A stretch of DNA of 64,000 nucleotides, from assembly GCF_024171865.1 (NCBI RefSeq), contig NZ_JAMTCN010000022.1, positions 1 to 64,000 on the forward strand, written 5' to 3'. The DNA comes from Prauserella aidingensis (lineage in GTDB: Bacteria > Actinomycetota > Actinomycetes > Mycobacteriales > Pseudonocardiaceae). Position numbers and translations under genes: made by a program. Shown piece by piece: positions 4,449-21,317 of this stretch; positions within the stretch are counted from its first letter, which is position 1; each line of letters starts with the position of its first letter. A model generated the notes under the pieces. That model was not told where the DNA came from. It saw only the letters and a list, made by a program, of their open reading frames with translations, and did not search any database.

Positions 4449-4461
4449 CCGCCCCCTGTCG

Positions 4462-5040: not shown

Positions 5041-5070
5041 GCCTCACCTCCCACCTCGACCGAACACCGC

Positions 5071-5139
5071 AAGTTGACCCGCTTCGTCAGTTTATCTACC
5101 GTTGACAGGCGAGACAAAACTGACCGACAGAGTCAAGTT
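5071..5139. promoter_or_regulatory. Probable TetR operator region between divergent genes
   Basis: The gap contains gtcagttt at 5086-5093 and its inverted copy aaactgac at 5117-5124. An outer, imperfect pair is aagttgac (5071-5078) and gtcaagtt (5132-5139). Nested symmetry between a tetR gene and its divergent partner is the usual operator arrangement. The AT-rich character also suggests the two promoters lie here. Confidence 0.55.
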
Positions 5140-5190
5140 ACAGGGGCGGGCCGATGGACCTCGGCGCGACCCCTGGGAAAGGTCGCCGGA

Positions 5191-6054: not shown

Positions 6055-6169
6055 CGTGCGTCACCCCTCGCCGGGTACGCGCATCGAACGCGGCACCGGC
6101 GAGGGGAACGTGCGCTGCGGATCGCAGGTGGCGGCCCAGGCGACCGCCGACCCGGCGACAGGTGCCGGT

Positions 6170-6817: not shown

Positions 6818-6966
6818 GGAGTCCTCCTTGGACCGGAATCGAGCTCGGACTGGTGTCGCTGCGCCGCTGAGGACGCCGCACAACCGATCGTCGCGATGTT
6901 GCCGCCGACCGGCGAGTGGCGTGAATGCCGACATACGATGAGTTCACGCCATTACGGAGGTGACGG

Positions 6967-8779: not shown

Positions 8780-8780
8780 G

Positions 8781-10127
8781 TCACGCCCCCAGGAACGCCT
8801 GGCCGCACACGCGCACGACGTTGCCGTTGACCGCGGCCGACGCCGGGTTGGCGTACCAGGCGATCGTCTCGGCGACGTCGATCGGCAGACCGCCCTGCGA
8901 CAGCGCCGACAGCCTGCGGCCGAACTCGCGGATCATGATCGGCACCGCGGCGGTCATCTGCGTCTCGATGAAACCGGGTGCGACGGCGTTGATCGTGGCG
9001 CCGTGGTCGGCCAGCCGCGGCGCCGTGTCGTCGACCATGCCGATGACGCCCGCCTTGCTGGCGGCGTAGTTGGTCTGGCCCACGTTGCCTGCGATGCCGG
9101 CCATCGAGGACACGCCGATGATGCGGCCGCCCGTGCTGAGCACCTTGTCGGCGACGAGCTTGTCGTTGACGGCGAGCTGCGAGACGAGGTTAACGCTCAG
9201 CACCGAGTCCCATGCCTTGTCGGTGAGGTTGCCGAGCGTCTTGTCGCGCGTGATGCCCGCGTTGTGGACGACGATGTCGACACCGCCGTGACGCTCGGTG
9301 AGGTACTCGGCGAGCTTTGCGGGCGCGTCGCCCGCCGTGATGTCGAGCTGCAGCGCGGAGCCGCCGATCTTGTTGGCGACCTGCGAGAGGTCGGCGCCCT
9401 GCGCCGGGATGTCGAGCACGACGACGTGGGCACCGTCGCGGGCGAGGGTCTCGGCGATCGCGGCGCCGATGCCGCGGGAGGCACCCGTGACCAGGGCCGT
9501 CTTGCCTTCGAGGGGTGTGTCCCAGTTCTCCGGCGCGGTCGCGGTCGTCACGCCGCCGGTGCCGACGCGGATGACCTGGCCCGCGACGAACGCCGACTTG
9601 GCCGACAGCAGGAATCGGATCGTCGACTCGGTGGCCTCCTCGGCACCTTCGGCGACGTACACGAGCTGGGCGGTCGCGCCGCGCTTGAGCTCCTTGCCCA
9701 CCGACCGGGTGAAGCCTTCGAGCGCGCGCTGGGCGATGCGCTCGCGGCCGCCGACCAGTTCCGGCGGCGTGCCGAGCACGACCACGCGCGCCGACGGGGC
9801 GACCTTGCGGATCACGGGCTGGTAGAAGGCGTACAGCTCCCGCAGCTGCTCCGGGTCCTTGATACCGGTGGCGTCGAAAACGAGCGCGCCGTAGCGGGTG
9901 TCGTCGCCCGCCGCCGCGGTGAGCACGTCGATGCCCGCGGCACCGATCTGCTTGGTGAGGGTCTTCTCGAGCCGGCCGCCGGGCGCCGCACCGAGCAACG
10001 CCGGGCCCGCCAGCGGCGGCTCACCCGGACGGTAGCGCCGCAGTTTCGGCGGGTTGGGCAGGCCGAGCTTCGGAACCAGGAACTTGCCCACCGCGCTCGT
10101 GGTGAACTCTTGATACTTGTCCGCCAT
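8781..10127 (-). CDS. fabG: High-molecular-weight 3-oxoacyl reductase (FabG4-like)
   Basis: At about 448 residues this is nearly twice the usual FabG length. The N-terminal ~200 residues form a degenerate flavodoxin/Rossmann-like domain. The C-terminal SDR half has TALVTGASRGIGAAIAE near 210 and a catalytic Ser~340, Tyr~354, Lys~358 (NYAASKAG). This matches the HMwFabG class (Rv0242c), which reduces 3-oxoacyl-CoA/ACP with NADH. I chose ATG at 10127; an in-frame GTG at 10139 is also possible. It forms an operon with the MaoC gene and shares its promoter gap with fadA2. Confidence 0.9.
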   Translation of the reverse strand: MADKYQEFTTSAVGKFLVPKLGLPNPPKLRRYRPGEPPLAGPALLGAAPGGRLEKTLTKQIGAAGIDVLTAAAGDDTRYGALVFDATGIKDPEQLRELYAFYQPVIRKVAPSARVVVLGTPPELVGGRERIAQRALEGFTRSVGKELKRGATAQLVYVAEGAEEATESTIRFLLSAKSAFVAGQVIRVGTGGVTTATAPENWDTPLEGKTALVTGASRGIGAAIAETLARDGAHVVVLDIPAQGADLSQVANKIGGSALQLDITAGDAPAKLAEYLTERHGGVDIVVHNAGITRDKTLGNLTDKAWDSVLSVNLVSQLAVNDKLVADKVLSTGGRIIGVSSMAGIAGNVGQTNYAASKAGVIGMVDDTAPRLADHGATINAVAPGFIETQMTAAVPIMIREFGRRLSALSQGGLPIDVAETIAWYANPASAAVNGNVVRVCGQAFLGA

Positions 10128-10172
10128 CGGCTGCGTCACCGCCTTCGTCTGAGTGCCTGTTGCCTCACACCC

Positions 10173-10194
10173 TAACCTACTCGCCAGTAAGTTA
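10173..10194. promoter_or_regulatory. 22-bp near-palindromic operator between fabG and fadA2
   Basis: Half-sites TAACCTACT (10173-10181) and AGTAAGTTA (10186-10194) are mirror images apart from one mismatch per arm. The site lies 46 bp before fabG and about 127 bp before fadA2. Its size and symmetry fit a TetR-family fatty-acid regulator. No regulator gene is adjacent. Confidence 0.6.
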
Positions 10195-10320
10195 CACTCG
10201 GACTCGCGAGGCCGAGAGCGCGACCCGACACTGACCAGTGCACAGGCCGCCCAGCGCCCACGACATCAGCGAAGCCCTGTACCAGCCAGCAGGAGCGAGC
10301 CCAGCCAGCAGGAGGAAGTC

Positions 10321-11649
10321 ATGACCTCAGCGGAGAAGCCGAGCGGCGGCAAGGCCCGGTCGAGCAAGCCGAAGGCGCCGACCGCGCGCAGGGTCGCGAT
10401 CGTCGGAGCGAACCGGATCCCGTTCGCACGGTCCAACGGCCCGTACGCGAACGCCTCCAACCAGGACATGCTCACCGCCACCGTCGACGGCCTCGTCAGC
10501 CGCTACGCGCTGCAGGACGAAGAGCTGGGCGAGGTCGCCGCGGGCGCGGTGCTCAAGCACTCGCGCGACTTCAACCTGGCCCGTGAGGTCGTGCTCGGCA
10601 GCAGGCTGGCACCGACCACGCCCGCGGCCGACGTGCAGATGGCGTGCGGCACCGGGCTGCAGGCCATCGTCAACACGGCGAACAAGATCGCGCTCGGCCA
10701 GATCGACTCGGCGATCGCGGGCGGCGTCGACACCACCAGCGACGCCCCGCTGGCCGTCAACGACGACCTGCGCCGCGTGCTCGTGAAGCTCAACTCCGCG
10801 AAGACGATGGGGCAGCGGCTCAAGCTGCTCGGCAAGCTCCGGCCCGGCCACATCGTCCCGGAGATCCCGCAGAACGCCGAGCCGCGCACCGGCCTGTCGA
10901 TGGGCGAGCACGCCTCGCTGACGGCGAACTCGTGGGACATCCAGCGCGCCGACCAGGACGAACTCGCCGCCACGAGCCACCAGCGCCTCGCGGCGGCCTA
11001 CGACGCGGGCTTCTTCGACGACCTGCTCACGCCGTTCCTCGGCCAGACGCGCGACCAGAACCTGCGCGCGGACTCGACGGCCGAGAAGCTCGGCAAGCTG
11101 AAGCCCGTGTTCGGCGGCAAGGACGGCACGATGACGGCGGGCAACTCGACGCCGCTGTCCGACGGCGCCTCCGCCGTGCTGCTCGCCACCGAGGAATGGG
11201 CCAAGGCGCACAACCTGCCCGTGCTGGCGTACCTGACGTTCTCGCAGACCGCCGCCGTGGACTACGTGCACGGCGACGAGGGCCTGCTCATGGCGCCCGC
11301 CTACGCGGTGCCGAGGATGCTCGACCGTGCCGGCCTGGCGCTCGGCGACTTCGACTTCTACGAGATCCACGAGGCGTTCGCGTCACAGGTACTGGCCACG
11401 CTGAAGGCGTGGGAGGACCCGACGTTCGCCAAGGAGAAGCTGGGGCGCGACGAGCCGGTCGGCTCGATCGACCGCGCGAAGCTGAACGTCAACGGTTCGT
11501 CGCTCGCCGCGGGGCACCCGTTCGCCGCCACCGGCGGCCGCATCGTGGGCACCCTCGCCAAGCTGCTGGCGGAGAAGGGCTCGGGCCGCGGCCTGATCTC
11601 CATCTGCGCCGCGGGCGGTCAGGGCATCACGGCGATCCTCGAACGCTAG
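10321..11649 (+). CDS. fadA2: Acetyl-CoA C-acetyltransferase / thiolase (FadA2-like)
   Basis: This 442-residue thiolase has the acyl-accepting Cys at C109 in VQMACGTGLQ, the HEAFA motif near 347, NVNGSSLAAGHPFAATGGR near 390 and the second active-site Cys in SICAAGGQG near 427. These define the two-domain thiolase fold. It condenses or cleaves 3-oxoacyl-CoA. The start at 10321 follows AGGAGG; upstream in-frame codons are unsupported. A basic, Ser/Lys-rich 20-residue N-terminal extension precedes the domain. Divergent from fabG/htdX, as in mycobacteria. Confidence 0.92.
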   Translation: MTSAEKPSGGKARSSKPKAPTARRVAIVGANRIPFARSNGPYANASNQDMLTATVDGLVSRYALQDEELGEVAAGAVLKHSRDFNLAREVVLGSRLAPTTPAADVQMACGTGLQAIVNTANKIALGQIDSAIAGGVDTTSDAPLAVNDDLRRVLVKLNSAKTMGQRLKLLGKLRPGHIVPEIPQNAEPRTGLSMGEHASLTANSWDIQRADQDELAATSHQRLAAAYDAGFFDDLLTPFLGQTRDQNLRADSTAEKLGKLKPVFGGKDGTMTAGNSTPLSDGASAVLLATEEWAKAHNLPVLAYLTFSQTAAVDYVHGDEGLLMAPAYAVPRMLDRAGLALGDFDFYEIHEAFASQVLATLKAWEDPTFAKEKLGRDEPVGSIDRAKLNVNGSSLAAGHPFAATGGRIVGTLAKLLAEKGSGRGLISICAAGGQGITAILER

Positions 11650-12047
11650 TCGACGGCGATGCTCACGGCGGCGACCCCCAGTATCGCGAGCAGGATGCCG
11701 ACGCCGACCCAGCCGAGCACGATGCCCGCCGTGGCCATCCCCTCGCCGCCCTCGTTCCGTTGCTTGATCTGGCTCTTCGCGATGTAGCCGAAGATCAGCG
11801 CGAGGATGCTGCCGAGCCAGTACAGCCACAGGATCCCGAGCACCATCGAGGCCACGGCCATACCGTTGGTCGGCCGCGGCGCCCACGCAGGCGGGTACGG
11901 CCCGTACGGCTGGCCCTGCGGATAGGGCCCGTACGGCTGACCCGGTGGGTACGGCCCGTACGGCTGACTCGGCGGTGCGGCGTACGGGTACGGCTGCGGC
12001 TCGGGCGGCATCGGGCCGCCGTACTGCGGCTCGTTCGGATCGGACAC
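11646..12047 (-). CDS. DUF4190 domain-containing membrane protein
   Basis: This 133-residue protein has a Pro/Tyr/Gly-rich cytoplasmic N-terminus with YGPYPPGQP repeats (residues ~30-50). Two hydrophobic segments follow, NGMAVASMVLGILWLYWLGS and GIVLGWVGVGILLAILGVAA, separated by GYIAKSQIKQRNEGG. This matches DUF4190, whose function is unknown; many occur near cell-envelope genes. The GTG start is at 12047. The 3' end overlaps fadA2 by 4 bp on the opposite strand. Confidence 0.85.
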   Translation of the reverse strand: MSDPNEPQYGGPMPPEPQPYPYAAPPSQPYGPYPPGQPYGPYPQGQPYGPYPPAWAPRPTNGMAVASMVLGILWLYWLGSILALIFGYIAKSQIKQRNEGGEGMATAGIVLGWVGVGILLAILGVAAVSIAVD

Positions 12048-12133
12048 GAACGGATCTTCTCACGGTGGACGGCGGCGTACCGCTCGGTACGGGCGCGGCC
12101 CGGTACGCCGCCGCGTGAGCCCGTTCCGAGGCA

Positions 12134-12167
12134 GCCACCCGTGGGTGTGGTCACACCCACGGGTGGC
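12134..12167. terminator. Perfect 16-bp-arm hairpin
   Basis: Arms gccacccgtgggtgtg and cacacccacgggtggc flank a 2-nt loop, without a T-tract. It lies between the DoxX stop and the DUF4190 start, both transcribed leftward. It most likely terminates the DoxX transcript. Confidence 0.65.
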
Positions 12168-12248
12168 GTCCGCGCTACGGCCACGACCGGTCGAGCGCGG
12201 GAGTAGGCGCCGGGGGTGGGTCAGCGGGGAGTGGGCGCCGGTGAGTGA

Positions 12249-12806
12249 TCAGCGGGCGGTGACGGCCTTGCCCGCCTTGTCGAGCTTGCTCTCGGCCTTG
12301 CCCTTCGCCTTGACGGTCGTGTGCTGCAACGAATCCGTGGTGTCGGCAACCTGCTTGCGCGCCTTGCGGGCGGCGCGCTTGGCGCGCCAGCCGACGGACG
12401 GTTTGCCCTCGGTGTCGGCCATCGCCAGGATCAGCCCGCCCGCCAGGCCGGCGTTCTTGAGGAACTGGACCTGTTCCTGAGCGCGCTCGCCCTCGTCGGT
12501 CTTCTCCCAGAACGGGTGTCCCGCCACGGTGGTCGCGGTGATGCTGGTGAGCAGCGCCAGCGACGACAACCTGCGGAACCTGCCGAGCGCGAGCATCGTG
12601 CCCGCCGCGACCTTCACCGCACCGTCGAACTTCACGACGGCCACGGGGTCGGTCTCCACGGGCAGCGCCTCGGCCACCGGCAGCACGTTCTCACTGAGGA
12701 ACGGCTCCGCGACCTGGGCGTGTCCCTCCGCCTGGCGGAGGGCGTTCAGTCCACCCGAGATGAAGACGGCGGCGAGCAGGGGCCGGGCCACACGGCGCAG
12801 GATCAT
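12249..12806 (-). CDS. DoxX family membrane protein
   Basis: This 185-residue protein matches DoxX: an N-terminal ILRRVARPLLAAVFISGGLN segment, a periplasmic-like acidic stretch, then two or three further hydrophobic helices (VAAGTMLALGRFRRLSSLAL, AGLAGGLILAMADT). The C-terminal ~50 residues are a highly basic Lys/Ala tail absent from short DoxX proteins. DoxX proteins are linked to respiratory quinone or redox functions. The ATG at 12806 follows CGGAGGAAC; a frame up to 12935 lacks support. Confidence 0.85.
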   Translation of the reverse strand: MILRRVARPLLAAVFISGGLNALRQAEGHAQVAEPFLSENVLPVAEALPVETDPVAVVKFDGAVKVAAGTMLALGRFRRLSSLALLTSITATTVAGHPFWEKTDEGERAQEQVQFLKNAGLAGGLILAMADTEGKPSVGWRAKRAARKARKQVADTTDSLQHTTVKAKGKAESKLDKAGKAVTAR

Positions 12807-12925
12807 CGGTGTTCCTCCGGTCGAACGGGGAGTCGCGCTGGGCGAACTTCTGGTCGGCTGAGATCTCTCTACGGATCTTCCGAAGATCTCTGTTCCAAAC
12901 CTACCCAGCGACACCCGTCTCCCGC

Positions 12926-12967
12926 TCTCTACCACTTTCTAGCGATGCGACTAGACAGTGGTAGAGA
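12926..12967. repeat. 42-bp interrupted palindrome
   Basis: The outer arms tctctaccact (12926-12936) and agtggtagaga (12957-12967) are perfect 11-bp inverted repeats. Inner ctag/ctag symmetry continues the stem. It lies about 120 bp upstream of the DoxX start. It could be an operator for DoxX or part of the 3' structure of the adjacent locus. Confidence 0.6.
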
Positions 12968-12980
12968 ACGGTATGGAGGA

Positions 12981-13033
12981 GCCCCCAGGGGCACATTGGT
13001 GGCACTCAACGCAACCAATGTGCCCCTGGGGGC
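12981..13033. repeat. Dispersed palindromic repeat, copy 1 (likely terminator)
   Basis: Perfect 20-bp arms, gcccccaggggcacattggt and its reverse complement, flank a 13-nt loop (ggcactcaacgca). It sits just past the original stop codon of the disrupted phosphodiesterase gene (13060, leftward), so it was probably that gene's terminator. Related copies are at 31910, 41665, 57122 and 59545. Confidence 0.9.
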
Positions 13034-13059
13034 GTCGTCAGGAGCGTCGACAGGACGTG

Positions 13060-13136
13060 TCAGCGGCGGTAGCGCTTCGGGAGTTTGAAGCCGTACTCCG
13101 CGGCCACCTCACGCAGCCGGTTCGGATAGTCACTGA
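13060..13136 (-). pseudogene. Stranded 3' end of the glycerophosphodiester phosphodiesterase gene
   Basis: Read leftward, 13136-13060 gives SDYPNRLREV followed by AAEYGFKLPKRYRR and a TGA at 13062-13060. The intact gene copy at 20166-21317 reads ISDYPNRLREV up to exactly the same point. This piece is therefore the original last ~25 codons of that gene, cut off by integration of the 7.1-kb element. It has no start or promoter of its own. Confidence 0.9.
13106..13136. other. attL, 31-bp direct repeat
   Basis: The 31-bp sequence beginning acctcacgcagccggttcgg and ending atagtcactga is repeated without mismatch at 20197-20227. It corresponds to codons for SDYPNRLREV near the 3' end of the phosphodiesterase gene. 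The next base differs on each side, which fixes the repeat length. Confidence 0.93.
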
Positions 13137-13239
13137 ATAGAACCGCGCAGTGCGGCTTGCTAATCACGTGTTGTTGCAGGTCGGCGAGCAGCGGCGATGG
13201 TGAACTATCCCGAACCAGGACCGGGGTCCTTGCGCTAAC

Positions 13240-13283
13240 AAGGCGGCCCCCGGTGGTGCTCACAACACCGCTCCGGGGGCCTT
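13240..13283. terminator. Hairpin near the left end of the element
   Basis: A GC-rich inverted repeat pairs ggcccccgg and ccgggggcc, with inner ggtg/cacc pairing. It lies just upstream of the first rightward gene of the element. It could insulate that gene from outside transcription or shape its leader. Confidence 0.5.
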
Positions 13284-13305
13284 GACCGAGAAGGGACCTC
13301 GGCCC

Positions 13306-13611
13306 GTGCTCACCATAGGTCTCGCGGTCGCGTGCGCACTACTCGTCGCGACTGCTCTCACGTTCGCGTTGCGTTCCCGCCACTGGCGACGCAAGGCCGA
13401 TGCGTACAAGGGCTTGATGGCCCATCACCAGCAGGGCGCCGGCGACGCCGTGACGCTGCACGAGCTCGACGTGCTGAGCCGCCTTGACGACGTGCGGGTG
13501 TTGGCGGCGCGGATGCAGCAGCACGCCGAGCCGGACGGGCTCACCGCGGCCGACGTGCGCGTGTTCGCCGCCAAGCTGCGCGTCGCCGCGATGGGCGGTG
13601 AGCAGCGATGA
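13306..13611 (+). CDS. Small membrane-anchored hypothetical protein (element)
   Basis: Not recognised. The ~101-residue product starts with a hydrophobic helix (VLTIGLAVACALLVATALTF), then RSRHWRRKADAYKG and a soluble helical part (AVTLHELDVLSRLDDVRVLAARMQQH). This suggests a single-pass protein with a cytoplasmic domain. I prefer the GTG at 13306, about 10 nt after AAGGGA; a TTG at 13282 would add eight residues. It is first in a tightly overlapping three-gene module (ATGA overlap with the next gene) just inside attL, where satellites often carry accessory genes. Confidence 0.6.
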   Translation: MLTIGLAVACALLVATALTFALRSRHWRRKADAYKGLMAHHQQGAGDAVTLHELDVLSRLDDVRVLAARMQQHAEPDGLTAADVRVFAAKLRVAAMGGEQR

Positions 13612-14009
13612 CCGGCGACGATCTGCACGCGCTGCGCGGCGAGCTCGACGCCGTCGAACGCCGGCTCTCCGACATTCGCGCACGCCTCGACGAGCACCGC
13701 GGTGCCCCTCCCGCCGGCGCCGGCGGCATCCGGTCCACCCACCTCAGCACCGGCGAGGCGCTGGAACGTGTCGAGGCGATGCACGAGGGCGGCACCGTGG
13801 CCTACCGCGTCACCGTCGACGGCGAGTGGGTCGGTTGGGTCGGTGACGGCGCCCCGTGGCGCGGCCACCGGTACGGCGGACGCCGCTGGTGGGCCTGCTG
13901 GCGGCAGGACGGCGACACCGCCGCCCGCTGGTCCTCCGAACTCGAATACCCGACCCGCAAGCGCGCTGTGGCCGCGCTGGTCGCCCGCATCGGGGGTGAT
14001 GGGTCGTGA
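13608..14009 (+). CDS. Hypothetical protein with N-terminal coiled coil (element)
   Basis: Not recognised. This 133-residue protein begins with a predicted coiled coil (LRGELDAVERRLSDIRARLDE, residues 7-28). A Gly/Pro linker follows, then a Trp-rich domain (VTVDGEWVGWVGDGAPWRGH, RRWWACWRQDGDTAARW). The Trp pattern suggests a small beta-rich domain. Its ATG overlaps the previous stop as ATGA, and its own stop overlaps the next GTG, so the three genes are co-translated. No homology-based function can be claimed. Confidence 0.65.
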   Translation: MTGDDLHALRGELDAVERRLSDIRARLDEHRGAPPAGAGGIRSTHLSTGEALERVEAMHEGGTVAYRVTVDGEWVGWVGDGAPWRGHRYGGRRWWACWRQDGDTAARWSSELEYPTRKRAVAALVARIGGDGS

Positions 14010-14215
14010 CGACATGGAAGTGCAGCCGGTGCCGCCGGCCCTACCGCGGCCGCGGTGACTGGAACATCACCGTCGAGGACGGCGTGGTCGTCGGGGCGTT
14101 GTGCCCCCGCTGCCAGACCGTCGACGAGAACACCGAAGCCGTGATCAACGAGGCCACGACGGACTACCTCGGCGCCGGCCCGGACGGCCGACTGAGGGGC
14201 CGCCCGAAGTCCTGA
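14006..14215 (+). CDS. Small zinc-ribbon protein (element)
   Basis: This 69-residue protein contains two CxxC knuckles, CSRC at residues 6-9 and CPRC near 33-36, separated by a short beta-like stretch (YRGRGDWNITVEDGVVVGAL). That is the layout of a zinc ribbon, usually a nucleic-acid- or protein-binding module. The GTG at 14006 overlaps the upstream stop. It is the last gene of the left module; a hairpin terminator follows at 14231. Confidence 0.65.
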   Translation: MTTWKCSRCRRPYRGRGDWNITVEDGVVVGALCPRCQTVDENTEAVINEATTDYLGAGPDGRLRGRPKS

Positions 14216-14230
14216 GCACCTGCCCGCAAC

Positions 14231-14263
14231 GTCGACGACGTCAGACCCGCTGACGTCGTCGGC
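14231..14263 (+). terminator. Terminator of the element's left module
   Basis: Ten-base arms gacgacgtca (14234-14243) and tgacgtcgtc (14251-14260) form a stable hairpin 18 bp after the zinc-ribbon stop codon. Confidence 0.7.
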
Positions 14264-14640
14264 CTTGTCGGCAGTGTGCCGGCGATTCCCGGTTTCCTTG
14301 ACACCGTCCGCCGGGATCACCGCCCGTTGCCGGTCGCCGTACACGACCGCGCGCGGGTAAGACGGGTCCGCTCGTAAACCACCCTGACGAGCGCAGGGCT
14401 CCCGGGCCGCAGGCCACGGCTCCGGGCGACATATCCGCACGCCGCGCGTCCACAGTCGACGCGCGGCCGGTCGTGCGGGCGGTGACGCGAATGGTGTGGG
14501 AACGTCCCGGCAGGGACCAGGGGAAGGGCCCTTCAGTGTGTCCAAATCCGGGCGAGCGGCAGGGGTACGCACCTCTGCGCACCCTCAACCCCCACAGTGC
14601 GCGTGTACGTTGCGCCGCCCGCCACGTGCGCGAGGTTTCC
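14264..14640. other. Non-coding part of the element's convergent centre
   Basis: No ORF with convincing codon bias is seen here. Frames that cross it have no ribosome site. The region lies between the 3' ends of two converging transcription units. It could hold a small RNA, a packaging site or replication signals, but I see no direct proof. Confidence 0.4.
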
Positions 14641-14775
14641 CTGTTTAGTAGACGGTGAAATCGTCGGTGCCGTCCCCGCGTGCGCGGGCACGAGGGGCAG
14701 GTGCGTCATATGACGCACCTGCGAGATCACGCCGTCCCCGCGTGCGCGGGCACGAGGGCCTGTTTACTAAACAGA
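14641..14775. repeat. Inverted ctgttta-type sites flanking the CRISPR-like pair
   Basis: At the left, ctgtttagtagac (14641-14653). At the right, ctgttta-c-taaacag (14760-14774) is itself a perfect 7-bp-arm palindrome whose reverse complement repeats the left sequence. The two sites bracket the pair of 28-bp repeats. They could be protein-binding sites or remnants of mobile-element ends. Confidence 0.55.
14669..14758. repeat. Two 28-bp type I-E CRISPR-like repeats with a palindromic 34-bp spacer
   Basis: Identical 28-bp units lie at 14669-14696 and 14731-14758. Each contains gtccccgcgtgcgcgggcac, a CCCGCG/CGCGGG stem typical of actinobacterial type I-E CRISPR repeats. The 34-bp spacer gives a 62-bp period, close to the 61-bp period of I-E arrays. 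The first 26 bp of the spacer (14697-14722) are a perfect palindrome, arms gcaggtgcgtcat and atgacgcacctgc. No cas genes are in the window. It may be a two-repeat mini-array carried by the element, or an unrelated structured site. Confidence 0.55.
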
Positions 14776-14799
14776 CCCCTCCGGTCGTTCGCGAGCGCC

Positions 14800-14826
14800 A
14801 AGGGTGTCCACAGTGGTGACACCCTT
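14800..14826. terminator. Hairpin in the convergent centre of the element
   Basis: aagggtgtccac and ggtgacaccctt form near-perfect 12-base arms around a 3-nt loop. It may terminate read-through from either converging unit. Confidence 0.5.
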
Positions 14827-14959
14827 TGCCGGCCGTGCCCTATCCACTACATATGTCACCGTTCTGGCGCTGAGCGTGTCTGTGCGGCCCGCAACCCCGG
14901 CGGCCAGGGGTTCACACCACCGCGCCACCGAACGGGCACACACGGCGCCAGCAGACGCG

Positions 14960-15007
14960 AAAGCGGCCACCCGCCCCCGGAGACAGTGGGGACGGGTGGC
15001 CGCCTTT
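14960..15007 (-). terminator. Terminator after the capsid gene
   Basis: aaagcggccacccg (14960-14973) pairs with cgggtggccgccttt (14993-15007), giving a strong stem with A/T ends on both sides. It lies 26 bp past the capsid stop codon and should work in both directions. Confidence 0.75.
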
Positions 15008-15032
15008 CTGTGCGCGCCTGCCAGGGTGCGCG

Positions 15033-16172
15033 TTACGCGGTGTCGAACGTGATCTCGGCGAAACCGTCCGGCTCGTCGACGGCGAGGTTCACCGCTTCCT
15101 CACCGAGGATGGTCACGATGTTGTTCTTCATCTGCGAGTACGGATCGACCATGAACGTCGGCGACAGTCCCACGACGAGCTGAGACGCCGCGCGCCACGA
15201 GCCCACCAGGGCGGTACCCGCGCCGACCGCCGACGACGGGTAGACCCGCAGACCGTGCAGCGTCAGCCGCAGCGCGTTCTCCGGGGACTCGCCGGACATG
15301 CCCACCGACCCGTCGAACACGTCGACGACGTCTTCCGGATTCATCACGATCACGTCGGGGTCGGCGCCCACCGCGGAGTCGACCACCATCGTCGCGCCGG
15401 CCAGCACGCTGGTCGTCTTGGACTCGCCACTGCCGGCGGTGTGGGTCTGGATGCCGTCCGTGCCCAGCGCCGTGGTGATCAGCAGCTCATCCTCCCGGCG
15501 CGCGATCAGCGCCGACAGCTTGCGCCGCAACCGGCCCTCGAACCCGCCCATCGAACGCAGCTGCATCGTCACATCGGTCCACGCGGCGATGATCTTCGGC
15601 GACGCGTCACCGGAGGTGATGTTGTCGTACTCGCCCTTCGCCGATCCCTCATCGGCGGTGGTGGCCGAACCGTCACCGAACACCGGGAACGTCACCCGCG
15701 ACCCCACGTCGACCGTTTCCGAGCCCAGCGCGGCGAACTCCGCCAGCCGGCGAATCGACACCGGCTGATTCTCCCGCACAGCCCACTGTTCCGAACTGCC
15801 CGCGTCGGCGGTGCCGACCGTGGCGAAACTCAACGCCGGCGTGCCCACCTTCAATGGCTGGCGCTGACTCGCCGCGCGGAACAGGCCAGCCATGTCCGAA
15901 CGGGTCGGCGTCAGACTCGGCACGCCTTCCATCACGCCGTAGTCGGCCAACGGGTCGCGGCGCTCACCGTCCCCCGGCAGCGGACGCGCCGTCGGATCGA
16001 CGAACCCCGGCCGCTGGTCCTGCTCGTCGCGCAACCGGTCGAGCTGATGCTCGATCTCCGAGAACCGCGTCGTCGCCTGCTCGTCGAGCGCGTCGCCGCC
16101 GGCGTCGGCAAGCAACTGCCGCGCCTCCACGATCAACCGCTCACGCTCCACCTCGGATGTCTCAGTACCCAT
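15033..16172 (-). CDS. HK97-family major capsid protein (element)
   Basis: This 379-residue protein has the HK97 capsid plan. The N-terminal charged, helical segment (ERERLIVEARQLLADAGG to LDRLRDEQDQR, residues ~8-55) is a scaffold-like delta domain. The mature subunit region begins near residue 75-90 and includes AAWTDVTMQLRSMGGFEGRLRRK and a C-terminal A-domain with VVGLSPTFMVDPYSQMKNN. It would form the icosahedral shell after cleavage by the adjacent protease. The protease gene overlaps its start by 11 bp. Encapsulin is less likely because of the delta domain and the linked protease. Confidence 0.9.
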   Translation of the reverse strand: MGTETSEVERERLIVEARQLLADAGGDALDEQATTRFSEIEHQLDRLRDEQDQRPGFVDPTARPLPGDGERRDPLADYGVMEGVPSLTPTRSDMAGLFRAASQRQPLKVGTPALSFATVGTADAGSSEQWAVRENQPVSIRRLAEFAALGSETVDVGSRVTFPVFGDGSATTADEGSAKGEYDNITSGDASPKIIAAWTDVTMQLRSMGGFEGRLRRKLSALIARREDELLITTALGTDGIQTHTAGSGESKTTSVLAGATMVVDSAVGADPDVIVMNPEDVVDVFDGSVGMSGESPENALRLTLHGLRVYPSSAVGAGTALVGSWRAASQLVVGLSPTFMVDPYSQMKNNIVTILGEEAVNLAVDEPDGFAEITFDTA

Positions 16173-16731
16173 GGATGAATCCCTTCTCGGCCAGGCGCAG
16201 CCGCAGCCGCGCCTGCATGATGTTCAGACCCTTGCGGTGCTCGCCGCTGCCGTCACCGGAGAACCCCGCACCCGCGAACGCCGGCTCGTTCACCAGCGAC
16301 ACCTCCCGCAGCCGGGCCTCGCTGTGCACCAGATCGCCCCGCCGGTCCTCGGTGAACCGCAACGGATCCACCCCCACCGACAAGCCGCTCACGTAGCCGT
16401 CGCGCACCAACTGCAACGCCTCATCACCCGAGGCGGTACTCGCGAACTCGAAACCGACCCGCAACCCCTCGGCGGTGTCGTCGAAATCCACCGCCCGCCC
16501 GATCGGCAACCGCTGCGTGTCGTGCTCCACGAACAGGCGCACCTTCGACCCCCGCTCGGAGATCGACCGTGCGAACGCGCCGGGCTGGAACCGGTGACGC
16601 TGCGGCTCGCCCTGAAACACGGTCGGAGAGGACGCCGTGCTGTACGGCACGGCCAGCCCCCGCAACATGCGGGACTGGCCGCCCTCATCCAGAGCGAACT
16701 CAGCAGAGAAGATCAGCAAATCGGCACTCAT
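16162..16731 (-). CDS. HK97-family prohead protease (element)
   Basis: This 189-residue protein matches HK97 gp4-type prohead proteases, a herpesvirus assemblin-like serine protease fold. The likely catalytic residues are H70 in RLFVEHDTQR and S118 in YVSGLSVGVDP; REVSLVNEPAFAGAG near residue 150 is also typical of the family. It would mature the capsid protein by removing the delta domain. The start is ATG at 16731, preceded by GGGAGA; an upstream frame to 16773 is not needed. Its 3' end overlaps the capsid gene by 11 bp, implying translational coupling. Confidence 0.9.
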   Translation of the reverse strand: MSADLLIFSAEFALDEGGQSRMLRGLAVPYSTASSPTVFQGEPQRHRFQPGAFARSISERGSKVRLFVEHDTQRLPIGRAVDFDDTAEGLRVGFEFASTASGDEALQLVRDGYVSGLSVGVDPLRFTEDRRGDLVHSEARLREVSLVNEPAFAGAGFSGDGSGEHRKGLNIMQARLRLRLAEKGFIHGY

Positions 16732-16839
16732 ATGGGCATCTCCCAGGCAGCAACGGACAACCGTTCGCCGCATGGCGACCCTTCCGTCCGGACGGCCCAG
16801 GGGAACCGGGCACCGGCGCCGGGGATGCCGAGCGCGCGC

Positions 16840-17049
16840 TCACCGATCATCGTAGCTCACCTCCGAGACCACAGCCGCCCCAGCCGACTGCCAGAACCCC
16901 GGCATGTAGTCCTCGGACTCGTGCGGGAACCGCGACGCGCGCTGATCACACGGCGCATGCGCCACCGCATCCCGCATACCCCCAGGACTGCGCAGCCGCC
17001 CGCACACCATGCAGCGACCTTCCCGGGTCTTCTCGTTGCTTTCGGACAT
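16840..17049 (-). CDS. Small cysteine/histidine-containing protein (element)
   Basis: This 69-residue product has CMVCGRLR near residues 13-20 and a later H-x-x-C (HAPC), a plausible zinc-binding set, plus an acidic C-terminus (FPHESEDYMPGFWQSAGAA). The ATG at 17049 follows AAAGGAACG. It lies upstream of the protease in the leftward series, separated by 108 bp. The function is unknown; small zinc proteins in this position may be transcription or assembly factors. Confidence 0.65.
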   Translation of the reverse strand: MSESNEKTREGRCMVCGRLRSPGGMRDAVAHAPCDQRASRFPHESEDYMPGFWQSAGAAVVSEVSYDDR

Positions 17050-17183
17050 GATCGTTCCTTTCCTGTTGAAAACCCCCGCCGACCCCGCGCAAAAAAACGG
17101 ACAGAGGGACGGGGGGTGTTCGGGGGTCCGGCTGTGGGGAAAACCGCAGGTCACAGCGCTACGATTCGTCGAGTTTGTGCTGG

Positions 17184-17309
17184 TCATGGGCTTACATGTC
17201 TGTCGTTTGTGGACGGTTTCGGGTCGAGGTGGTCGGCGACGAGTGCGGCGGCGTCGGCGAGTTGCCGCAGGGCGTCGGCGAGCAGCGCGGCCCGCTCGGC
17301 GCTGGTCAT
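17184..17309 (-). CDS. 41-residue helical small protein (element)
   Basis: The ATG at 17309 follows a strong GGAAGGAACACACC site and gives a short amphipathic Ala-rich helix (SAERAALLADALRQLADAAA). The start overlaps the stop of the upstream gene (17306-17309). That coupling and ribosome site support a real small gene despite its length. The function is unknown. Confidence 0.55.
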   Translation of the reverse strand: MTSAERAALLADALRQLADAAALVADHLDPKPSTNDRHVSP

Positions 17310-17575
17310 GGTGTGTTCCTTCCGGTGTCGTGTGCCCATACGGCGCGGCGCCGGCGGGCGGGGGACAGGTGGGGTTTGCAGATCAGGCACGGGCGCGGGC
17401 GCTCGGCGTCGCGGTCGAGCCAGCCGTGATCGCACTCGTGCGGCTCGGCAGGGGTGCGGCTACTGTCCGGCCCCTTCGACCACACATCCGTAGTGCGGAT
17501 GTCGTCTCCGGTGGCCGGATCAGTAGTCCGCTCGTCGTCGTCGAGGGGTTCGCCGTAGCGGTCGAGGCGGCTCAT
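17306..17575 (-). CDS. Small Cys/His protein (element)
   Basis: This 89-residue product starts MSRLDRYGEPLDDDERTTDP and contains EPHECDHGWLDRDAERPRPC followed by LICKPH, a C-x-H/C-x-x-C pattern suggesting one zinc site. Its ATG overlaps the stop of the replication-type gene by 4 bp and its stop overlaps the next start, so three genes are translationally chained. Similar small proteins are common in actinophage replication modules. The function is unknown. Confidence 0.6.
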   Translation of the reverse strand: MSRLDRYGEPLDDDERTTDPATGDDIRTTDVWSKGPDSSRTPAEPHECDHGWLDRDAERPRPCLICKPHLSPARRRRAVWAHDTGRNTP

Positions 17576-18345
17576 GCGGCGTGCCTCCGGCATCCGCGGT
17601 TGCCGCACGTGCCGTCGGGGTCGAGGTACATGCCGCACCCCGGGCACTCCGGAGCGCGCGGACGCGAGCCGGCCCGTTCTTCCCCTTCCGAGCGTTCTTG
17701 TTCGGCGTCGGGAGTCTCGCGCGCGCGGTCGGGACTCACGTGGGGAAGCCCCGATTGATCCTCCCGTGTTCCTGAGTGGTTCCTCAGTGGTTCCTGGGGG
17801 GCTACCTGAGGTGGCCCCGTTGCGACCCCTGAGGTAGCCCCGTCTGACACCTCAGGTAGACCCGTTGCGTCACCTGAGGTAGCCCCGTTGCCCGCTCCCG
17901 GGCGGCTCGCAGGTGCGAGCGTTTCGCGATCCTCTGTGGAGGGTGCGGGGGTAACGGGGTCACCTGAGGTGGTCCCGTTGCCGTTGCTCACGGGGCTACG
18001 TGAGGTGTCCCCGTCGAGGCGTAGCGCGTACTCGCCCTGACGCCCCGGGGCCGGCTTCACAACCGTCTCGATCGCCCCGGCGCGCGACAGGGCGCCGACG
18101 GCCTTCTTGACGTTCCGCGTCGCCCGGGCGTACTCCCGTTGCGCCTCGTCGTCGGACACGGTCGCCGGCACGGCGTACCCGAGCGCGTCGGCGAGCGCGT
18201 CGCGGCCACCGAAGTAGCGCCGCGCCGGTTTCCCCTCCCGCGGGGTGTCGAGCGCCGTCAACGCCATGTACGCCAGCAGCCGGAACGGGGCGTGATCGAG
18301 GTGCGACCAGCGGGCGTAGACGGCCGCGACGTTGCTGGCACCCAT
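17572..18345 (-). CDS. Winged-helix replication-initiator-type protein (element)
   Basis: This 257-residue protein has three parts. The N-terminal ~110 residues resemble a winged-helix DNA-binding domain (ARWSHLDHAPFRLLAYMALT, then YARATRNVKKAVGALSRAGA and a wing GRQGEYALRL). The middle (about 115-195) is a low-complexity linker encoded by repeats. The C-terminus is a CPGCG...CGNRGC zinc motif. Placement between the integrase-proximal genes and the structural genes, and the iteron-like repeats within the gene, suggest a replication initiator akin to lambda O, which binds iterons inside its own gene. This is inference; a pure transcription factor remains possible. Confidence 0.6.
   Translation of the reverse strand: MGASNVAAVYARWSHLDHAPFRLLAYMALTALDTPREGKPARRYFGGRDALADALGYAVPATVSDDEAQREYARATRNVKKAVGALSRAGAIETVVKPAPGRQGEYALRLDGDTSRSPVSNGNGTTSGDPVTPAPSTEDRETLAPASRPGAGNGATSGDATGLPEVSDGATSGVATGPPQVAPQEPLRNHSGTREDQSGLPHVSPDRARETPDAEQERSEGEERAGSRPRAPECPGCGMYLDPDGTCGNRGCRRHAA
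17802..18016. repeat. Six iteron-like repeats inside the replication-type gene
   Basis: Copies of an ~20-bp unit close to acctgaggtrgccccgttgc lie near 17803, 17827, 17848, 17871, 17961 and 17996. The core in most copies, ACCT(G/C)AGGT, is a 9-bp palindrome. The spacing is irregular, with a 70-bp gap after the fourth copy. In the protein they encode the variable linker (NGATSGDAT, SDGATSGVAT). They may be the element's origin of replication. Confidence 0.7.
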
Positions 18346-18426
18346 CAGCGGCCCCCGCTCGGCCGCGCGTGCTTGTCGGGGCGGGGAGTTACGCTGGTGT
18401 CAGACCTTCCGTCGTCGGTCTGCTGG

Positions 18427-18460
18427 GCCGCCCGGTTCTCCCGTGCCGGGCGGCCTTTCT
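18427..18460 (+). terminator. Hairpin with T-rich tail upstream of the replication-type gene
   Basis: gccgcccgg (18427-18435) pairs with ccgggcggc (18446-18454), followed by ctttct. It lies between the 18467 gene and the replication-type gene. The T-rich side faces rightward. Confidence 0.55.
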
Positions 18461-18466
18461 CTGCCC

Positions 18467-18739
18467 TCATGCCGCGTCACCGCCGGTGGTGCGGGCGCGG
18501 GAGGACTTGAACGCGAGCCGTTGCATGTGGAGCCGGCGGGCGGCCTCGGCGCGGCGGGAGAGTTCGGGCTCGACGATCTCTGGGTCGGCGTCGAGGACTT
18601 CGCGGCGGAACCGTTCGAGTAGGCCGGCCTGGCCGCGCGCGGCGTTGGCGCCGGGGGATTCCTTGGCCCAGCGTGCGAGCGCGGCGATACGCGCGCGTTG
18701 GGACCGTTGTTCAGGGGTGAGTGACGTGGACTTGGCCAC
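18467..18739 (-). CDS. Small basic helical protein (element)
   Basis: Not recognised. The 90-residue product is rich in Arg/Ala and Glu (TPEQRSQRARIAALARWAKE, then RRAEAARRLHMQRLAFKSSR) and should be almost wholly helical. Phages often encode such proteins as small DNA-binding or assembly factors, and an excisionase role cannot be excluded. The GTG at 18739 follows GAAGGAGTC. A 90-bp gap separates it from the zinc-ribbon gene upstream. Confidence 0.6.
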   Translation of the reverse strand: MAKSTSLTPEQRSQRARIAALARWAKESPGANAARGQAGLLERFRREVLDADPEIVEPELSRRAEAARRLHMQRLAFKSSRARTTGGDAA

Positions 18740-18829
18740 GGGCTGACTCCTTCGGGCAGCAAAAACTCACCACCGATGGGTGGTCTGCCCGTGAAGTTCT
18801 AGCGGCCCACGTCCCGCATCACCGGCATC

Positions 18830-19219
18830 CTACCGCAAGGCGGAGATGTCGAGTTCCGGCACGTCGTTCTCAGCCAGTGCGGTGAAGCACCGGCGCGCGG
18901 TTTCCTGCCGCATTGGCACGTCGCGGCCGCATTTCGGGCACTTTGGACGGAAGGTGTCGCGGATGGTCGGCCGGTCGCCGTCGGCCGCTTGTTTCATCGG
19001 TGACCCCGGCGCCCACGGCACAAACGCGATGGTGACTTCGGGAGCGTCGAGTGCCGTCGCGGGCTCGGTCTGCACGGACGTGTGTTGCGGGTTGTCGAGC
19101 CACGCGGCCATGTCCTCGGCCGATGGGGTGGCGATCGGCCGTTCCGCGGTGAGCCAACCGAGGTTGCGGGGTGGGTGCTGGCCACGGCCGGTGCAGACGA
19201 CCTTGACGCGTCCTGTCAT
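18830..19219 (-). CDS. Zinc-ribbon-containing hypothetical protein (element)
   Basis: The ATG at 19219 gives a 129-residue protein: MTGRVKVVCTGRGQHPPRNL, a middle acidic part with WLDNPQHTSVQTEP, and a C-terminal CPKCGRDVPMR motif followed by ARRCF. The cysteines suggest a zinc ribbon. Its start overlaps the integrase stop by 4 bp, so it is co-translated with the integrase. The function is unknown; a recombination directionality factor or phage transcription factor are candidates. Confidence 0.65.
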   Translation of the reverse strand: MTGRVKVVCTGRGQHPPRNLGWLTAERPIATPSAEDMAAWLDNPQHTSVQTEPATALDAPEVTIAFVPWAPGSPMKQAADGDRPTIRDTFRPKCPKCGRDVPMRQETARRCFTALAENDVPELDISALR

Positions 19220-20112
19220 CCGAAGTCTCCGAGGTTGAGCCGGCGGGCCTCGGCGTGCGCTCGTTGCTCGTTCGCGTGCTGCGCGTACCGGTCGATCATG
19301 TCGCGGCGCGACCATCCCGCCATCGACATGAGCGCGTTCTCGCTGCCGCCGTGCTGCAGCCATCGGGACGCGAACGCGTGACGGGTGCGGTGCAGATGAA
19401 ACTCAGCGATACCGGCCGATTCGGCGCGCTGTTTCATCGCCTTGGCGAGCCCGTCGTATCCGAGACCTTGCCCGCGCTCGCCGAGCCAGAACGTCGCTGA
19501 GCCGGCGAGCGTGTGCCGGCGGCGGGCGCGGCGATACCGGTCGATCGCCGCCCCGGTCGCCGGCCCGAACGTGACCGTGCGTCCCTTGCCACCCTTGCCG
19601 CGGCGGACGACAGCGAGGCCGCGCACGAGGTCCACATCATCGGTCGTCATGGCGATTACCTCGCCGGCGCGGAGTCCGCATTCGAGCAGCAGACGGGCGA
19701 TCGCTTCGTCTCGGCGGTCGCGGAATCCGTGGCCCTGGCATGCGGCCACGAGGTCGCGGCACTCCTCCTCGGTGAGCCCGTCGACCACCTTCTGGTCAAG
19801 CTTGGGCGGGGTGATATCGGTGAGCTCGTCCTGGGCGATCTCACCCTCACCGGCCAGCCACGCCGAGAACCGGCGGACGGCGAGTTGCCGCACACGAGCC
19901 GTCGCCGGTTCGTGGCCGGCCGCCAGGATCGAATCCGTGTAGCTGCTGACGCTGCGCCGATCGAGTGCCGGCTCGACGCCAGCCCGGGCGCAGTAGTCGA
20001 GGTACTGCTCGATGCCCCGCCGGTAGGAATCCAGCGTGTTGGCGCTCTTGCGCTCGGCCCGCAGCCGCAACAGCCACGAGTCGAGCAGCTCACGCAGCTC
20101 ATCAACGTCCAC
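19216..20112 (-). CDS. Tyrosine recombinase/integrase (element)
   Basis: This 298-residue XerC/D-like integrase has an N-terminal SAM-like core-binding domain (residues ~1-95). The catalytic domain carries R148 (CGLRAGE), a hairpin Lys in RGKGGKGR (173-176), H241-x-x-R244 (HRTR), W267 (AGWSRRD) and the nucleophile Y276 (DMIDRYAQ). It would recombine the 31-bp att core. The start is GTG at 20112. The 84 bp between it and attR contain no gene and could hold arm-type or promoter sites. It encodes the only complete recombinase in the element. Confidence 0.95.
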   Translation of the reverse strand: MDVDELRELLDSWLLRLRAERKSANTLDSYRRGIEQYLDYCARAGVEPALDRRSVSSYTDSILAAGHEPATARVRQLAVRRFSAWLAGEGEIAQDELTDITPPKLDQKVVDGLTEEECRDLVAACQGHGFRDRRDEAIARLLLECGLRAGEVIAMTTDDVDLVRGLAVVRRGKGGKGRTVTFGPATGAAIDRYRRARRRHTLAGSATFWLGERGQGLGYDGLAKAMKQRAESAGIAEFHLHRTRHAFASRWLQHGGSENALMSMAGWSRRDMIDRYAQHANEQRAHAEARRLNLGDFG

Positions 20113-20165
20113 AGCCTGTTATCTTGACTTAGACCGGCTTGCTATGCAAAGCTTCCCAGCGTTGG

Positions 20166-21317
20166 CTAGTAAAATGGCTGGTCAATGGCGTTAAGTACCT
20201 CACGCAGCCGGTTCGGATAGTCACTGATGATGCCGTCCACGCCGTGGTCGATGAGCTTGCGCATGGTCGGCTTGTCGTTGATCGTCCAGGGGATCACGTC
20301 GAGACCCTCGGCGTGCGCCTCGTCGACCAGTTCCTTCGTCGTGAACGGCACGTAGTCGGGATCGCCGACCGCACCGTCCTGCGGGTTGCCGTGCACCGGC
20401 GACAGCGCGCTCGCCCCGAACGACGCCGCCGCGCGCGCCGGGCTGCCGCCGAAGTCGTCGATGTCGAGACCGCCCAGCCACGGCGACGCACCCGGCTCGC
20501 CGACCTCGAGGAAGCCCGGTTCGGTCAGGGCGACGAGCGGCAGCTTCGGCATCCGCTCCTTCATGGCCATCAGCGCACCCCAGTCGAAGCTCTGGATGCT
20601 GACGTTCCGCGCCAGCCCACTGCGCTCGACCTCCGAGGCCACACGCTCGACGAACTGCTGCCGCGGCGCCGTCTCCTCGGGCGCGGCGGCCTCGACCTTC
20701 GTCTCGATGTTGAACTTCACGCCGTAGGCGCGGTGCTCGCGGACCAGCGCGAACAGCTCGGCGAGCGTGGGCATCGGTTCGCCGGGGGAGAGCACCTGAT
20801 CCGGGTGACGCGGGTCCTGCTGCGACCCGCAGTCGAGGGTGCGCACCTGCGCGAACGTCAGATCCTTGACGTACTTGCCCGCGTAGGGGAACTGCGGATC
20901 ACCCGGCGTCACCGGCTCGGTGTCGAGGCACTTGTCCGGGTCGATCCGCCGGTCGTGGGTGATCACTTCGCGGCCGTCGCTGGTGATCTGCACGTCGAGC
21001 TCGAGGGTGGTGACACCGAGGTCGAGTGCTCGGTCGAACGCCTTGAGCGTGCCCTCGACGGTCATGCCGATGCCGCCGCGGTGGGCCTGGATGTCGAAAT
21101 GAGGGTTGCCGTGGGGTGGGGTTCCGTGGGGCGCGGTCGCGTGGGCATCGCCGGTCGGTGTGGTGCCGCCCGCCGCCCCGGGTGCCTGCGCGGCGGCGGG
21201 CGCCGCGCCCAATGCCGTCATGAGTGCCGTCGCGCCGAGCGCGATGGCCGTCTTCACTGTCGTGGTCACGAGCTCCGACGGTGACACGGCAGAGTGAAGG
21301 GAGGGTGTCCTCGACAT
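20166..21317 (-). CDS. Glycerophosphodiester phosphodiesterase, C-terminus replaced by element integration
   Basis: This 383-residue secreted enzyme hydrolyses glycerophosphodiesters to glycerol-3-phosphate and an alcohol. It has a signal peptide (KTAIALGATALMTALGAAPA, residues ~22-41) and GDPD residues H79/R80 (QAHRGG), E106/D108 (ELDV) and H121 (THD), then IKFN-type strands ending VIPWTINDKPTMRKLIDHGV and ISDYPNRLREV. The last codons, VLNAIDQPFY, come from element DNA. The original tail EVAAEYGFKLPKRYRR is stranded at 13060-13136. The catalytic barrel is intact, so the hybrid is probably active. The ATG is at 21317; a GTG at 21269 is possible. Confidence 0.92.
   Translation of the reverse strand: MSRTPSLHSAVSPSELVTTTVKTAIALGATALMTALGAAPAAAQAPGAAGGTTPTGDAHATAPHGTPPHGNPHFDIQAHRGGIGMTVEGTLKAFDRALDLGVTTLELDVQITSDGREVITHDRRIDPDKCLDTEPVTPGDPQFPYAGKYVKDLTFAQVRTLDCGSQQDPRHPDQVLSPGEPMPTLAELFALVREHRAYGVKFNIETKVEAAAPEETAPRQQFVERVASEVERSGLARNVSIQSFDWGALMAMKERMPKLPLVALTEPGFLEVGEPGASPWLGGLDIDDFGGSPARAAASFGASALSPVHGNPQDGAVGDPDYVPFTTKELVDEAHAEGLDVIPWTINDKPTMRKLIDHGVDGIISDYPNRLREVLNAIDQPFY
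20197..20227. other. attR, 31-bp direct repeat
   Basis: Perfect second copy of the att core (first at 13106-13136). It lies within the phosphodiesterase reading frame, 84 bp beyond the integrase start codon. Confidence 0.93.

Follow-up and report, generated by a model that had tools for sequence, protein, structure and literature searches.

A 7.1-kb integrated element of Prauserella aidingensis with capsid and prohead protease genes, probably a phage satellite, and its conserved structured non-coding region

The systems that most resemble the element reported here are chromosomal islands and satellites that carry a capsid gene. The candidate phage-inducible chromosomal islands (PICIs) of mycobacteria, including phiRv1 and phiRv2, are treated in the relevant passages of PMC10654092 as regions of phage-like character that have both a capsid gene and the machinery to integrate, and a survey of actinobacterial prophages states, where it deals with small elements, that satellites could be among those below 15 kb and that validation by experiment is lagging (PMC10023795). 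The element considered here lies in the actinobacterium Prauserella aidingensis (GCF_024171865.1), in the first 64 kb of contig NZ_JAMTCN010000022.1 (positions 1-64,000, forward strand), the whole of which was analysed and is called the window below. It is 7.1 kb long, encodes 12 proteins, among them an integrase, a prohead protease and an HK97-type major capsid protein, and is probably an intact integrative, PICI-like, capsid-carrying phage satellite that would borrow the remaining virion parts.

By its architecture the element is PICI-like, of a capsid-carrying kind already proposed for mycobacteria. Integration machinery and a major capsid protein within a phage-like region, here an integrase and a capsid gene integrated in an actinobacterium, are what the passages on the mycobacterial candidates ask of a candidate PICI, and some of those candidates have replication genes too (PMC10654092). 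The PICI-type hallmark of a chromosomal island bounded by attachment (att) sites, with an empty site in relatives, is also present. However, the three examples with a tyrosine integrase that are drawn in that paper occupy tRNA genes whereas this element occupies the 3' end of a protein gene, and the passages concerned contain no mention of anything like the structured region and repeat array described below. With the capsid-forming PICIs (cf-PICIs), as they appear in the pertinent part of PMC10690885, the element shares a capsid protein and head maturation protease of its own, the lack of tail genes and the state of an integrated island. Their definition there includes portal, head-tail connectors, terminase subunits and an HNH nuclease, none of which was found, so that the element falls outside that class as defined; the original prediction of a capsid-forming satellite is supported as to the satellite and not as to full membership of the cf-PICIs. 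The Streptomyces satellites MulchRoom and MiniFlayer, capsid-encoding and actinobacterial like this element, are described in the same source as having terminases, portal and scaffold and no primase homologues, compared with capsid, protease and a putative initiator here (PMC10690885).

Both ends of the element consist of a 31-bp perfect direct repeat. The left copy (13106-13136) forms the left border and is identical at 31/31 positions to the right copy (20197-20227), which lies within the 3' end of a minus-strand host gene (20166-21269); the integrase gene sits immediately inside the right copy. This host gene, which from its sequence we take to be of GDPD type, is present in 7/7 genomes of the genus; the element has replaced its 3' end, giving it a new in-frame C-terminus, and the native 3' end was located to the left of the left att copy. 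When the element was removed and its flanks joined by script, the resulting 437-nt junction aligned across the core in all six other genomes of the genus, over its full length in L151 (88%) and L153 (81%) and over 259-271 nt around the core in L150, L152, L154 and L155 (84-95%). The element is therefore an insertion whose bacterial attachment site (attB) is empty in those six, and attB is occupied in one of the seven species. A 23-bp inverted repeat (96% complementary, 12981-13033) just outside the left border is perhaps a terminator, and belongs to the host since the empty site of G006 (L151) has it too.

Read from the right border, the minus strand encodes the integrase, zn129, p90, a protein of 257 amino acids (aa), zn89, p41, p69, the protease and the capsid protein; from the left border the plus strand encodes R109, R133 and R69. 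The tyrosine integrase (298 aa, 19216-20112, minus strand) matches PF00589 (E=2.9e-26) and PF02899 (E=4.5e-7). The S78/HK97 prohead protease (189 aa, 16162-16731, minus strand) scores 43.7 bits against PF04586 and 77.3 bits against TIGR01543 (cut-offs 21 and 59 bits), and His70, Ser118 and Glu143, presumably its catalytic residues, are invariant in the window and in two related elements (L010 and L011, see below); its profile retrieved nothing relevant from the PDB. The major capsid protein (379 aa, 15033-16172, minus strand) matches PF05065 (33.5 bits, cut-off 24.2) and PHROG 10 (E=1e-11), and its profile matches HK97 gp5 in the PDB (2gp1, E=4.4e-4). In an AlphaFold model, its N-terminus forms a helical hairpin (helices 4-24 and 31-52, block means of the predicted local distance difference test, pLDDT, 61-79), a putative delta domain. 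All three proteins are assigned by Pfam, above its cut-offs, and by PHROGs, and the protease by NCBIfam as well. A PHROG scan of the 12 proteins yielded nothing above chance for a portal, terminase or tail (two tail matches, at E=0.37 and 0.55, were taken as chance). Only the integrase, the 257-aa protein and the capsid protein exceed 210 aa, which excludes a portal, a large terminase subunit and a tape measure by size, although the small proteins may include divergent connectors or a very divergent small subunit of terminase. The original prediction of a 7.1-kb element with these three genes and with no portal, terminase or tail is thus borne out by family matches, att repeats and protein sizes, and so is its argument that a compact gene chain speaks against decay: all frames are intact and six pairs overlap (integrase/zn129, 257-aa gene/zn89, zn89/p41, protease/capsid, R109/R133 and R133/R69). 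The elements phiRv1 and phiRv2 also have protease and capsid and are not known to have a portal.

When 200 related genomes were searched with the capsid protein, seven gave matches, the element's own included: strongly in G049 and G081, at E=2e-11 in G004 and weakly in G001, G075 and G089. The integrase was matched in 199/200, mostly distantly, and 26 neighbourhoods were retrieved. Two of these, L010 (in G081) and L011 (in G049), belong to another genus and have in common with the window the chain integrase-p90-(initiator)-p41-p69-protease-capsid, the very type of order that it had been proposed to look for in relatives. Their proteases are 73-74% identical to that of the window, while their integrases (37% and 51% identity) and flanking genes differ, which places the same layout at other loci; they also differ from the window by an extra gene of ~180 aa and the lack of zn89, and zn129 is found in L011 only. 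L010 is att-bounded, by a 19-bp repeat with copies 6,955 bp apart at tRNA-Met. Within the genus, L012 (G004) has R109 and R133 in common with the window (R133 92% identical) and a capsid gene product that is 26% identical, and L037 (G001) has p90 (84%), R133 (91% over part of its length) and a protease (PHROG 2263, E=4e-10) in an att-bounded 7,225 bp. For L011 and L012, candidate att repeats did not clearly exceed a shuffled null (best 17 of 24 vs 14-17), and none was found for L033, L035, L036, L038, L039, L041 and others. In none of L010, L011, L012 and L037 was a gene for a portal, terminase or tail seen. The ratio of nonsynonymous to synonymous substitution rates (dN/dS) was 0.11-0.50 in 9 of 12 gene pairs: 0.25 for the protease (window-L011), 0.21 for the capsid gene and 0.11 for the initiator (both L010-L011), 0.50 for the ~180-aa gene, 0.34 for R133, 0.26 and 0.13 for p90, 0.32 for zn129 and 0.33 for the integrase in one pair.

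The relationship to full-length prophages was addressed by searching a three-sequence protease alignment over 297 genomes of the bacterial family, which returned 28 places in 26 genomes, the three best being the elements of the window, L010 and L011. Of the other 25 places, 12 were retrieved and inspected. Eleven proved to be longer phage regions with proteases 29-38% identical; in blastp with the two best matches per protein, and with terminases of L046 or L014 and the putative portal L014_11 as references, a large terminase subunit was found in 8/11, a putative portal in 10/11 and a tape measure in 9/11, with the proviso that L014_11 and L014_13 are identified by position or homology only and that L114 stops at a contig end. 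The twelfth, L110, is a candidate small element with a serine recombinase (by eye), a protease at 38% and a capsid protein (PHROG E=4e-47), in which, its borders not being defined, neither terminase nor portal was matched. In a protease tree of 19 rows, the window, L010, L011 and L037 group together (80/91) and 10 of the 11 prophage rows lie across a weak split (68/100); several branches are very long. Neither of the two observations that the original prediction had named as contrary to it was thus made, since the four relatives lack visible portal, terminase and tail genes and the nearest homologues do not belong to prophages. Further afield, capsid peptide-pattern scans of viral and genome contigs and a scan of viral contigs with a pattern from the protease alignment confirmed no relative, and tblastn of the capsid protein against phage records gave five records (three phages, two of them recorded twice), all below 32% identity. 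In the host genome, the only S78 protease found was the element's own.

A number of results nevertheless weigh against the satellite interpretation. Three of the seven capsid matches lend it no support: that in G075 (L014) belongs to a full prophage, while around those in G001 (L015) and G089 (L013) inspection by eye showed no phage genes. The capsid protein is just 33% identical to those of L010 and L011, and its AlphaFold model (pLDDT 33) is unreliable outside the N-terminal helices. In L012 a capsid gene is present and no protease was seen, in L037 the converse holds, and such a lack of uniformity could stem from the loss of modules as readily as from design. The three remaining dN/dS values are higher: 0.54 for the protease (L010-L011), 0.73 for the capsid gene (window-L011, near synonymous saturation) and 0.56 for the integrase in another pair. 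The protease tree does not contain a single clade for all small elements (it implies three changes), L034 grouping with prophages and L014 with small elements. In the element, neither a small terminase subunit nor a capsid-size factor nor a known cos/pac site was identified, and the host genome contains neither a PF04860 portal nor a PHROG-9 terminase, so that no resident helper was seen and a helper would be currently absent or of another type. The putative replication gene has no family match (E=0.11 at best in PHROGs, nothing in Pfam and nothing that passes the NCBIfam cut-off), and its 257-aa product is not significantly similar to the L010 initiator in blastp (E=0.38) or to an L010/L011 profile in hhalign (probability 4%, E=0.009 over 54 residues). 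Homology to that initiator is therefore not claimed, which slightly lowers our confidence in a satellite. Finally, excision, packaging, replication, use of a helper and small heads are steps that we infer.

The main rival is a virion-assembly interference island, in which capsid protein and protease would be retained mainly for defence, poisoning head assembly of rival phages in a dominant-negative manner, and the element would itself be packaged rarely or never. Virion or tail assembly inhibition by prophage- and PICI-encoded proteins has been reported (PMC11364771, PMC10884400). The retention of shell genes only, and of capsid alone in L012 and protease alone in L037, would agree with such a role, but an integrase, att sites and repeats in the putative initiator gene suggest a mobile cycle, and the two shell genes stand in the same arrangement in three elements, for the most part under selection; we consider interference improbable, if deserving attention. 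Decay of a full phage that lost its portal, terminase, tail and lysis genes is unlikely, and we give it less credence than interference. Full prophages within the bacterial family do contain protease-capsid pairs of this kind, and two relatives have just one of the two shell genes. However, the reduced layout is common to three elements of two genera, frames are intact and overlapping, purifying selection is apparent, the att repeats are perfect and none of the signs taken to mark decay, namely broken frames, relaxed selection and lost att sites, was found. A satellite is better supported than decay because the same layout occurs in two other genomes at other loci under amino-acid selection, because attB is empty in 6/6 congeners and occupied in a single species, and because the closest protease homologues (73-74%) reside in small elements rather than prophages. 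An encapsulin-like nanocompartment or other domesticated, non-mobile shell, suggested by a weak capsid match to family 3 encapsulins (E=0.004, 16.3 bits vs a cut-off of 180), can be set aside as highly implausible in view of the prohead protease partner, N-terminal helical hairpin, HK97 gp5 profile match, integrase and att sites.

What appears to be new is a conserved structured region with covarying helices in capsid-carrying small elements. Between the convergent R69 and capsid genes lie 817 non-coding bases, of which the first ~330 nt (14216-14545, plus strand) are conserved in five elements (window, L010, L011, L012 and L037), with blastn identities of 74-81% over 190-310 nt despite differing integrases and capsids, and with indels that are not multiples of three. 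At its 5' end, a long hairpin (14220-14274, plus strand; fold z=-6.9) is kept in 5/5 elements with z from -3.7 to -7.2, and changes on both sides of its stem distinguish the window, L012 and L037 (by eye). In a 149-position covariance core (14362-14510), both-side changes affect 11/45 pairs vs 5.4 +/- 1.7 in shuffled alignments (0/500 as high) and at most three pairs in slid-alignment controls, and 93.7% of the cells pair vs at most 49% in controls, figures that derive from five sequences, two of them close, and a structure taken from the same alignment. The folding energy favours neither strand (z -1.5 and -1.8). Rfam has no match within the region at E<=1; two below-threshold Rfam miRNA matches elsewhere in 13000-20400 were taken as chance. 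A covariance model, R1, matched 5/390 family genomes at E<=0.001 with stricter filters that lose weak matches, and these five are the ones used to build it; weak R1 matches (E 0.005-0.007, 18-22 bits) at a second place in L012 and in L127, L110 and L128 were also taken as chance. When the non-coding region itself was searched against 120 genomes, 69 matched at E<=0.01, with only G000, G049, G001 and G004 below E=1e-13; the next best was at 2.5e-5, and the remaining matches were read as GC-rich chance. Against phage records only short matches were found (E 0.2-3). The region is a candidate RNA, or a candidate packaging or replication site. Neither such a region nor the tape-measure satellites mentioned below were met in the literature searched, which is no proof of their absence from print.

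In three of the five elements (window, L010 and L011), the structured region adjoins repeats. In the window, two copies of a 28-nt repeat (14669-14696 and 14731-14758, plus strand, 62-bp spacing), the only two in the genome at up to three mismatches, are separated by a spacer with a 26-nt perfect palindrome (14697-14722); L010 has two related repeats (6283-6370) and L011 four (minus strand), likewise GC-rich, with a spacing of 61-62 bp throughout. Among the five spacers, a perfect dyad was detected by script in two (window and L011), while the other three have shorter or imperfect ones, by eye. Such regularity, at intervals of roughly six turns of the helix, would be appropriate for a site bound by a protein. 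The window spacer matches the 40.9-kb viral contig IMGVR_UViG_3300049273_000020 at 33/34 positions, and the core of the palindrome recurs in another viral contig as well as in two genome contigs from phyla unrelated to each other or to the host. A CRISPR (clustered regularly interspaced short palindromic repeat) array is not claimed for 14669-14758, as exact searches with three pieces of the L010/L011 spacers gave no match and the repeat at the host Cas1 locus differs. This host locus (L147, G000:C24, ~2097-13500), with Cas1 by PF01867 and a repeat beginning GTTGCTGCGCCTACGGGCGCAGC, is by eye type I-G-like. Separately, the repeat core CGCGGGCRCGAG led to four viral contigs with CRISPR-like arrays (L127, L128, L129 and L130); L127 and L130, which share sequence, have six repeats each, and in L128 blastp additionally points to genes for a capsid, a protease, a putative portal and a rep-like protein.

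The 257-aa gene (17572-18345, minus strand) occupies the position of the O-like initiators of L010 and L011 (PHROG E=1e-10 for that of L010). It contains a putative origin (17781-18001) made of five copies of a 40-nt repeat family, and all four copies of ACCTSAGGT in the window fall inside it; the repeats within the L010 initiator gene are unlike these. In phage lambda, the origin lies inside the initiator gene O, and by analogy, position and repeats suggest that the 257-aa gene may be a replication initiator with an internal origin. Of the replication-type gene in the original prediction, position and internal repeats thus speak in favour, while the family match and the similarity to O-like initiators that might have confirmed it were not found. 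Similarly, the proteins it called zinc ribbons have CxxC motifs, spotted by eye, with no family above cut-off in the scans made. These are zn129 (129 aa, 18830-19219, minus strand), 57-58% identical in L011, where it is also beside the integrase; zn89 (89 aa, 17306-17575, minus strand); p69 (69 aa, 16840-17049, minus strand), 62-66% identical in L010 and L011; and R69 (69 aa, 14006-14215, plus strand). The three-helix protein p90 (90 aa, 18467-18739, minus strand) is common beside related integrases, its alignment comprising 17 other loci (14 by BLAST and three, L012, L039 and L041, by eye). The structure prediction that had been suggested for the small proteins gave a confident p90 model (pLDDT 89.4) and no known fold at E<=0.001. 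The remaining proteins are p41 (41 aa, 17184-17309, minus strand), which has no Pfam match and shares 76% identity across 34 aa with its counterpart in L010/L011 (E=0.004), R133 (133 aa, 13608-14009, plus strand), without a significant family match, and R109 (13306-13611, plus strand), a small protein with an N-terminal hydrophobic segment that starts at GTG 13306 by homology, or at TTG 13282. A promoter scan found none, and there are four terminator-like sites vs 2.4 expected.

For a capsid-carrying satellite, these features suggest a cycle in which infection by, or induction of, a tailed helper phage would lead to excision of the element and to its replication, probably from the repeats in the 257-aa gene. 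The element would build its own HK97 shell from capsid protein and maturation protease, and the portal, terminase and tail of the helper would serve to package and deliver it; a satellite-specific shell would favour a head fitting the small element DNA. The structured region and the repeat array may together form a cis-acting module, whether for replication, packaging or as a regulatory RNA.

Several other att-bounded elements were noted among the relatives. Three with an integrase and 8.4-11.5 kb in length, L043 (4112-12484), L045 (1742-13003) and L048 (660-12198), encode tape measures of 506, 900 and 1260 aa (PHROG E=2e-35, 5e-51 and 2e-107), with no capsid or portal match among the 11 proteins scanned. 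L043 and L045 have p90, L045 a minor-tail match (E=2e-16) and a transposase-like insert by eye, and L048 a small terminase subunit (E=9e-25) together with an FtsK-like protein (E=6e-20, with a weaker match to the large terminase subunit at 2e-5). L046 (2920-12357, 9.4 kb), with a large terminase subunit, portal and capsid (PHROG E=9e-90, 4e-97 and 4.5e-42), is closer to a cf-PICI. In the 8.7-kb element of L040, two adjacent genes (5785-6999) encode products with similar N-termini, one of 283 aa that matches a capsid PHROG (E=5e-25) and one of 111 aa.

It is conceivable, and we put it forward tentatively as more doubtful than probable, that these elements form an actinobacterial satellite family of 7-11.5 kb in which each member overrides a single module of the helper virion, be it the shell (capsid, protease or both) or the tape measure (with a small terminase subunit in one), and takes the other parts from the helper, and in which shell members of two genera share a covariation-supported RNA or packaging site followed, in 3/5, by a repeat array with dyads. 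Satellites with a tail-length ruler of their own would be unusual, and the relatives suggest a gradation of satellites, each replacing one virion part. At 7.1 kb and without portal or terminase, the Prauserella element would represent a very small layout for a capsid-carrying satellite, and raises the question of whether a satellite shell accepts a foreign portal and terminase. Its conserved structured region offers a concrete, testable cis or RNA element of capsid-carrying satellites.

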